DNA from: an uncultured Treponema sp.
GTDB lineage: Bacteria > Spirochaetota > Spirochaetia > Treponematales > Treponemataceae
Direction of reading: 5' to 3'
Length of the DNA stretch: 54,473 nucleotides
Assembly: GCA_946410085.1 (NCBI GenBank)
Contig: CAMJZA010000019.1
Span: 1-54,473 of the forward strand
The position numbers and the translations under genes are program-made. Of the stretch, positions 1 through 1,024 are shown in pieces. Position 1 is the first letter of the stretch. Each line of letters opens with the position of its first letter. Below the pieces are notes generated by a model. It saw nothing but the letters and a program-made list of their open reading frames with translations. It was not told the origin of the DNA and searched no databases.

Positions 1-899
1 CGGAAGCGTCGGTATAGGAGACGTCCACGGAGTAGGTCCGTGTTTCGGAGTCGTTGAGCGGGGTAAAGCCCGCGCCGAGCATCTGGCCTGCAGTGCGGGT
101 GAGGGTTGCCCCCGTGCCGACTTCGTTGCCGTCCGCATCCTTCCAGCTGTAGCTGAAAACTGCATCGTCGGGGGCGCCGTCAAGGTTCGTAATGCTGAAG
201 GTGACGGACGTGCTGTCCGGGGCGGTATCGTTGTATGCGATGGCGGAAGGGCTGACCAGTACGGTCAGGCTTTCGGGCAGGGTCCAGAACTGGCGGGCGA
301 TGCTGACGCTCAGGTTGCCCCCTTCCTTCACCTGCTGGGTGTCCCTGCCGTACCAGAAGATTGTCCCGTTGGAGTCCTGCACGGACAGTTCTATCGTAAC
401 GAAACTGTTTGTCTCGACCTTGGGGACTTCAAAGCGGACGAAGCCGTCCGCATCGGCAGCCCGGGTTTCCGAAAAGCTGACGCCCCTGCCCGTGACGGTC
501 AGCGTCACCGTGCCGCCCGTCGGGAGCCCCAGATCCTCTGCGGACATGCTGACGGTCTGGGTCTCGGGGCTGGCGGTGCCGCCGCTCTGACTGACAAGTT
601 CAATGATTTTGCCTGCATCGCCTGCAGTAATGGCGTCCGCCAGGTCCTGTGCGGTAAAGGTTCCCGATGAACCGCCGGAAGAGCCGGAAGCGGAGCTTCC
701 CGAACCGGAGCCACCGCCTGAGCCGCTGCTGACCGGAGTGCCGTTGGGGTTATAGACTTCGCCCCCAGAGTCCACCGACCCGCCGTTACCGGTACAGGAG
801 GCAAAGGCCAGCGAAAATATAATCAGAGAAGAGAAGAGAAGAGAAGAGAAGAGAAGAGAAGAGAAGAGAAGAGAAGGTTTTCTTAAAATTCCCTGTCAT
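1..899 (-). CDS. Partial phase-variable surface lipoprotein, out of frame as read
   Basis: The reading frame runs off the left edge. ATG at 899-897 has a GGGAG ribosome site 4 nt upstream and opens M-T-G-N-F-K-K-T, followed by ten TTCTC pentamers that encode a hydrophobic FSSLL stretch. With ten copies this frame stops at 788-786 after 37 residues. A different frame encodes LIIFSLAFASC with the lipobox Cys at 796-794, then a Gly/Ser-rich linker and about 220 residues rich in Thr, Val and Ser that look like beta-sandwich domains, open to base 1 without a stop. That frame has no start codon of its own; it joins the ATG only when the copy number is 2 modulo 3 (8 or 11). Seen: repeat, frames, lipobox. 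Inferred: surface lipoprotein switched by slipped-strand mispairing. I do not recognise the mature domain. Confidence 0.75.
826..875 (-). repeat. Pentanucleotide microsatellite, (TTCTC)x10 on the coding strand
   Basis: Ten perfect GAGAA units on the plus strand, TTCTC (a rotation of CTCTT) on the coding strand, inside the signal-peptide coding region. The unit length is not a multiple of three, so each gain or loss of a copy changes the frame. The same pentamer at the same place switches opa genes in Neisseria (known biology); here the arrangement is seen in sequence and the switching is inferred. Confidence 0.95.
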
Positions 900-996
900 T
901 CTACTCCCGCTCCCGGCCCTTCCCGTTCGGGCACAAATCCGTTTCCTGTCCATAGCGCGCTACTCCTCCGGCACGTACCTGCCAGTCTTTCAGCTC

Positions 997-1024
997 AGTA
1001 TAGCACAGATTGTGATTTGTGCAA
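997..1024 (-). promoter_or_regulatory. Sigma-70-type promoter of the lipoprotein gene with overlapping dyad
   Basis: Read on the minus strand: TTGCAC (1024-1019), 16-bp spacer, TATACT (1002-997). The start codon lies about 98 nt downstream. The interval 1003-1022 is an imperfect dyad (arms GCACAAAT / ATCTGTGC, one mismatch) filling the spacer, the usual place for a repressor or activator operator. Confidence 0.7.

Follow-up and report, generated by a model that had tools for sequence, protein, structure and literature searches.

The opa genes of Neisseria carry CTCTT repeats within the codons of the leader peptide, are turned ON and OFF by changes of reading frame and make up a family of several complete genes (PMC3960869, PMC4534519). 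In the spirochaete Treponema pallidum, the tpr genes and tp0126 are controlled by poly-G tracts; these variable simple repeats have been studied chiefly in promoters, where they act on transcription (PMC7864442). Mycoplasma Vlp and Vpma lipoproteins are displayed combinatorially within one clone, and the Vpma genes switch by site-specific DNA recombination (PMC11868660).

The gene described here lies at one end of a 54,473-nt stretch of DNA (referred to as the window in this text), on the minus strand of contig 19 (C19) of a 3.64-Mb spirochaete draft genome. The host had been taken for a spirochaete in the original prediction, and in line with this we found FlaA in the genome (it is absent from 14 control genomes). 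With high probability, the window gene is a translational phase switch belonging to a repeat-switched family of lipoproteins. The predicted opa-like anatomy holds: the CTCTT unit, its position in the leader and the encoded LFSSL peptide are all as in Neisseria opa. The relevant features are the following.

997..1024, minus strand: promoter-like TTGCAC-N16-TATACT (consensus match only)
963..969, minus strand: Shine-Dalgarno-like GGAGGAG, which also precedes the ATG in paralogues C12, C63, C73 and C115
951..953, minus strand: likely start codon ATG (MDRKRICARTGRAGSGSRMTGNFKKT...), with an equivalent ATG in paralogues
897..899, minus strand: alternative start ATG, in frame with ATG 953 and chosen in the original prediction
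825..876, minus strand: CTCTT pentamer tract, (CTTCT)10.4, 52 nt, a 100% perfect array in the signal-peptide h-region
794..811, minus strand: lipobox LAFAS-C in another frame than the ATG, Cys codon 796-794
786..788, minus strand: TAA that closes the ATG frame with the copy number as assembled (OFF, from frame reading)
2..895, minus strand: lipoprotein reading frame, open over 298 codons from an upstream TGA and truncated by the contig end

The ten pentamer units reported for the leader proved to be a perfect tract of 10.4 units. The ATG frame ends at the TAA (788-786), which gives the 37 residues predicted from ATG 899 and 55 aa from ATG 953. The lipobox frame, also as predicted, runs from the Cys (796) through 265 open codons to the contig edge. 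Upstream it is closed by a TGA (898-896), and between this TGA and the tract it contains no ATG, GTG or TTG. With nothing ahead of the tract to start the lipobox frame, the gene is OFF as assembled, as had been read. Frame arithmetic shows that changes of -8, -5, -2, +1 or +4 units would restore the frame, among them the 8 and 11 copies named at the outset. Only the start codon has to be reconsidered. ATG 899 is in frame, but ATG 953 is the likelier start because it is conserved in the paralogues and is preceded by GGAGGAG and the promoter-like site; the choice between the two leaves the frame logic unchanged. The gene thus has a pure non-triplet repeat inside the ORF near its 5' end, followed by an intact frame that whole-unit changes can reach, as in contingency loci based on simple sequence repeats. 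In dinucleotide shuffles of the window, a 20-nt stretch of the tract had 0.01 expected occurrences with 3 mismatches allowed. A reversed-pattern control is uninformative for CTCTT, which read backwards is the same repeat.

Two further repeats were noticed upstream of the lipoprotein gene. A 22-bp tandem repeat (CCGTACGCACGGAGCTGTACGA, 5.3 copies) occupies the intergenic positions 1150-1265 of the window, and an imperfect inverted repeat, with arms containing CCATAAAAACGTAT and ATACGTTTTTATGG, spans positions 1028-1159. The latter may be a dispersed element, since a 48-nt piece of it is found again ahead of the C73 gene.

In the window protein as well as in its paralogues, a signal peptide is followed by a lipobox ending in Cys, as expected for bacterial lipoproteins. 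The Phe at position -3 of the window lipobox (SLAFAS-C) breaks the strict L/V/I rule and fits the relaxed lipobox of spirochaetes; the paralogues display TAVIAC, GFTAC and FAAC. Behind the lipobox, the window protein continues with a Gly/Ser linker and a beta-rich region without a match among the Pfam and NCBIfam models. An AlphaFold model computed without alignment was beta-rich (pLDDT 56), and a Foldseek query with it gave FN3/Ig-like matches, none of them with an E-value below 0.001, to which we give no weight. In C29 and C63, which are full paralogues, the protein ends in BspA-type leucine-rich repeats (LRR_5, PF13306; 47.5 and 35.9 bits at a cut-off of 27.7). This cut-off was not reached in C12, C11 or the window copy, the last of which ends before the LRR part. 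Lipobox and LRR together suggest that the family is displayed on the cell surface.

The original prediction had treated the locus as a single gene. This picture did not hold, because the feature has many paralogues in its own genome, where the analysis covered the surroundings of the repeats and of the family members. A search with the N-terminal region of C29, which is 86% identical to the window protein over 267 aa, yielded 29 family members. CTCTT tracts of 24 to 59 nt are present on eight contigs (C11, C12, C19, C29, C63, C73, C115 and C130), and all those with enough flanking sequence are signal peptides of this one lipoprotein family. Other members carry other repeats: C64 has an in-frame TATTC repeat in its signal peptide, while poly-G tracts directly follow the lipobox in C40 (G13), C31 (G10), C7 (G8 and G9) and C28 (G9). 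Throughout the family, in this genome and in related species, the repeat units CTCTT, TATTC and poly-G are 5 or 1 nt long, none of them divisible by three.

More repeats were observed at contig ends and in other genes. TATTC tracts of at least 55 nt are found at the ends of C18 and C92 (L169 2118-2172 and L170 1-55), the C18 tract being preceded by a plausible ATG. An 8-nt repeat, CTTGCGGG/T, occurs at five places (L123 1-55, L124 3958-4012, L125 1-62, L126 3737-3791 and L127 3922-3976). It begins directly behind a promoter-like TTGACA-N16-TATAAT site (C90, C64 end) and extends into lipoprotein signal peptides (C34, C114, C104), where the sole start codons are TTGs within the repeat; perhaps it is a leader-length or start-site switch. 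A 7-nt repeat, GCGGACT, was seen at four contig ends (L172 1-55, L173 1-55, L128 3416-3494 and L171 1-55), two of them behind a promoter-like site of the TTGACA-N16-TATAAT type, and in C46 it leads into a family lipoprotein. Poly-G tracts also occur near the start of a glycosyltransferase-like gene (L078, C24:31953; G11, in frame) and in a GxGxG-like motif of a methyltransferase-like gene (L085, C38:5741; G13), both functions being judged by eye. The set of phase-variable genes may therefore be wider than the lipoproteins.

From this arrangement, a switch would work as follows. The window gene would be transcribed and translated from ATG 953, and slipped-strand mispairing during replication would add or remove CTCTT units. 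Since the unit is 5 nt long, roughly every third copy number (n = 8, 11, 14) joins the ATG to the lipobox frame. CTCTT encodes (LFSSL)n whichever of the three frames is read, so in every ON state the tract supplies the signal peptide with its hydrophobic core. Copy number would at the same time set the length of this core; 11 units correspond to an h-region of about 30 residues, which, being long for a signal peptide, counts against this model. All other states would yield no lipoprotein, just a dead-end peptide, at present of 55 residues. With many paralogues carrying an independent non-triplet repeat, either CTCTT/TATTC in the signal peptide or poly-G in the linker past the lipidated Cys, a clonal population would become a mix of cells that express, export and display different subsets of lipoproteins, presumably to their benefit.

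How far does the tract itself support such a role? The search for the pentamer in other treponeme genomes that the original prediction had proposed showed that it is rare: it occurs in 4 of 196 genomes of the genus (own genome included) and in 8 of 393 across the phylum (at 25 nt). Outside the family, CTCTT lies in frame within lipoprotein signal peptides of three spirochaetes (L017, L019 and L207, in genomes G172, G093 and G266). The CTCTT tracts inspected in four low-GC genomes of the phylum (L203-L206) were not at a recognisable gene start; one of these, on the minus strand of L203 (1269-1529), is a 261-nt array. Because CTCTT is also found outside genes in other spirochaetes, the tract alone is no proof of a switch or of selection. 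The argument for the switch is its place, frame and family. The family is present in 6 of 199 other genomes of the genus (E-value 1e-10). Seven members from related species carry poly-G tracts of 8-12 nt at the post-lipobox position (1 ON, 6 OFF), and in one the signal peptide contains a degenerate 7-nt repeat.

It is conceivable that the tract does switch the gene but is a non-adaptive accident of a signal peptide rich in Leu, Ser and Phe in a slippage-prone genome. LFSSL makes a good hydrophobic core in which slippage would be tolerated, and the intergenic CTCTT tracts elsewhere in the phylum fit this explanation as well. However, we consider it unlikely, although it survives better than any other alternative, since the units are always non-triplet and are confined to two fixed places, with different sequences across paralogues and other species.

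Eleven repeat-bearing genes of the genome have both flanks, and their states were read by hand from the frames: 4 of the 11 are ON and 7 are OFF. Among the CTCTT genes, C12 is ON while C19, C29, C63 and C130 are OFF; the TATTC gene C64 is ON; and the poly-G genes are ON in C7 (G9) and C28 and OFF in C40, C31 and C7 (G8). Of the 11 members that lack a repeat and have a clear 5' end, 10 were in frame (Fisher p 0.024 against the 4 of 11, with paralogues that are not fully independent and with C1:17619 excluded because its signal peptide was not recognised).

The predominance of out-of-frame copies could also mean that the family consists of decaying pseudogenes, each broken for good by one past slip. 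One repeat-free member (C31:24319-24753, minus strand; L055, 5' end of match) does have a lipobox that does not match the downstream frame, probably by a true frameshift. However, the fraction of ON genes is close to the one-third expected for a random frame, the repeats are pure and not degenerate, and the OFF paralogues have frames open for about 640-1158 codons, with dN/dS values of 0.28-0.54 between paralogue pairs (alignable stretches), well below 1. The pseudogene reading, which had been named, with an invariant copy number and an always-broken frame, as one outcome that would count against a switch, is thereby weakened, and we regard decay as quite improbable. Because the OFF frames stay open and dN/dS is about 0.3-0.5, the genes appear to be a maintained family of contingency loci, kept as coding sequence. 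The translational switch read from the window alone is thus strengthened by the family, with the tract on eight contigs, other non-triplet units at the tract position, a mix of ON and OFF states and intact OFF frames.

It seems still less probable that a short-read assembler miscounted a copy number which in reality is in frame. Many contigs stop exactly 55 nt into a repeat, which points to an assembly with k=55, and at this value a tract would collapse from 60 nt upwards. The state of C12, the only ON gene of the CTCTT type, is unsure for this reason: its 59 nt equal k+4, the longest non-looping value, and may be an under-count. C19 and C73 have the tract and its flanks in common. Of their 161 nt of likeness, 105 nt are identical; since the likeness ends there, C73 is a separate locus with the same 5' cassette as the window gene, and the pairing of upstream and downstream halves at these two loci rests on the assembler. 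Nevertheless, the tracts of the window (52 nt), C130 (48 nt), C29 and C63 (24 nt each) are shorter than k and are spanned by single k-mers, and the OFF states of the poly-G genes are independent of it. Joining C19 to C122 was considered and rejected, as the two are homologous (91%) but not identical.

A last alternative is that there is no switch, the downstream frame being translated even when out of frame, either through internal initiation (a GTG at 775 could initiate the mature part) or through programmed frameshifting at the tract, slippery pyrimidine repeats being known. It can be set aside as hardly credible, because internal starts would leave the protein without a signal peptide, the tract offers no known shift signal, and the poly-G and TATTC genes would need the same explanation.

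Taking the translational switch as the preferred reading, we can ask what it means for the lineage. A wider proposal, for which we see about as much reason to believe as to doubt, is that this treponeme lineage has a combinatorial coat of ~29 lipoprotein genes, of which ~14 loci have independent in-ORF switches. Interchangeable units (CTCTT, TATTC, in-gene poly-G, and the 7- and 8-nt leader repeats) would sit at two or three fixed points, 5' switch cassettes would move between loci, and the exact Opa repeat would have been re-invented. In the open-access literature searched, a scope outside which most subscription papers lie, we found no report of a pentamer switch in treponemes, nor of a large repertoire of phase-variable lipoproteins in treponemes other than T. 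pallidum. The family points to such a repertoire in treponemes besides T. pallidum, and repertoires of this kind would be under-counted because short-read assemblies break at these loci.

The comparison with the described systems can now be drawn. Like Vlp and Vpma, the proteins form a lipoprotein family with a predicted combinatorial display; unlike Vpma, each gene has a start region of its own and the repeats lie within the ORFs, so that recombination is neither seen nor needed. With the poly-G genes of T. pallidum they share the use of simple repeats in surface-protein genes of a spirochaete, but here the repeats (pentamer or poly-G) are inside the reading frame. The LRR_5 domains of C29 and C63 relate these two paralogues to BspA-type LRR proteins, whereas the N-terminal region in the window has no Pfam or NCBIfam match. 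The closest parallel is opa, with CTCTT in signal-peptide codons, a frame-based switch and a gene family. Opa proteins, however, are adhesins of another protein family. The mature window protein, with its lipobox, its Gly/Ser linker and no Pfam or NCBIfam match, displays no homology to them; two paralogues have BspA-type LRRs, and the repeats of sister genes are built from different units. The window gene works like opa but is no opa gene. The Opa switch has a near-perfect convergent counterpart here, in a different phylum and a different class of surface proteins. This suggests why (CTCTT)n recurs: it is prone to slippage, has a non-triplet unit and encodes a hydrophobic LFSSL core in every frame, properties that make it an ideal signal-peptide switch.
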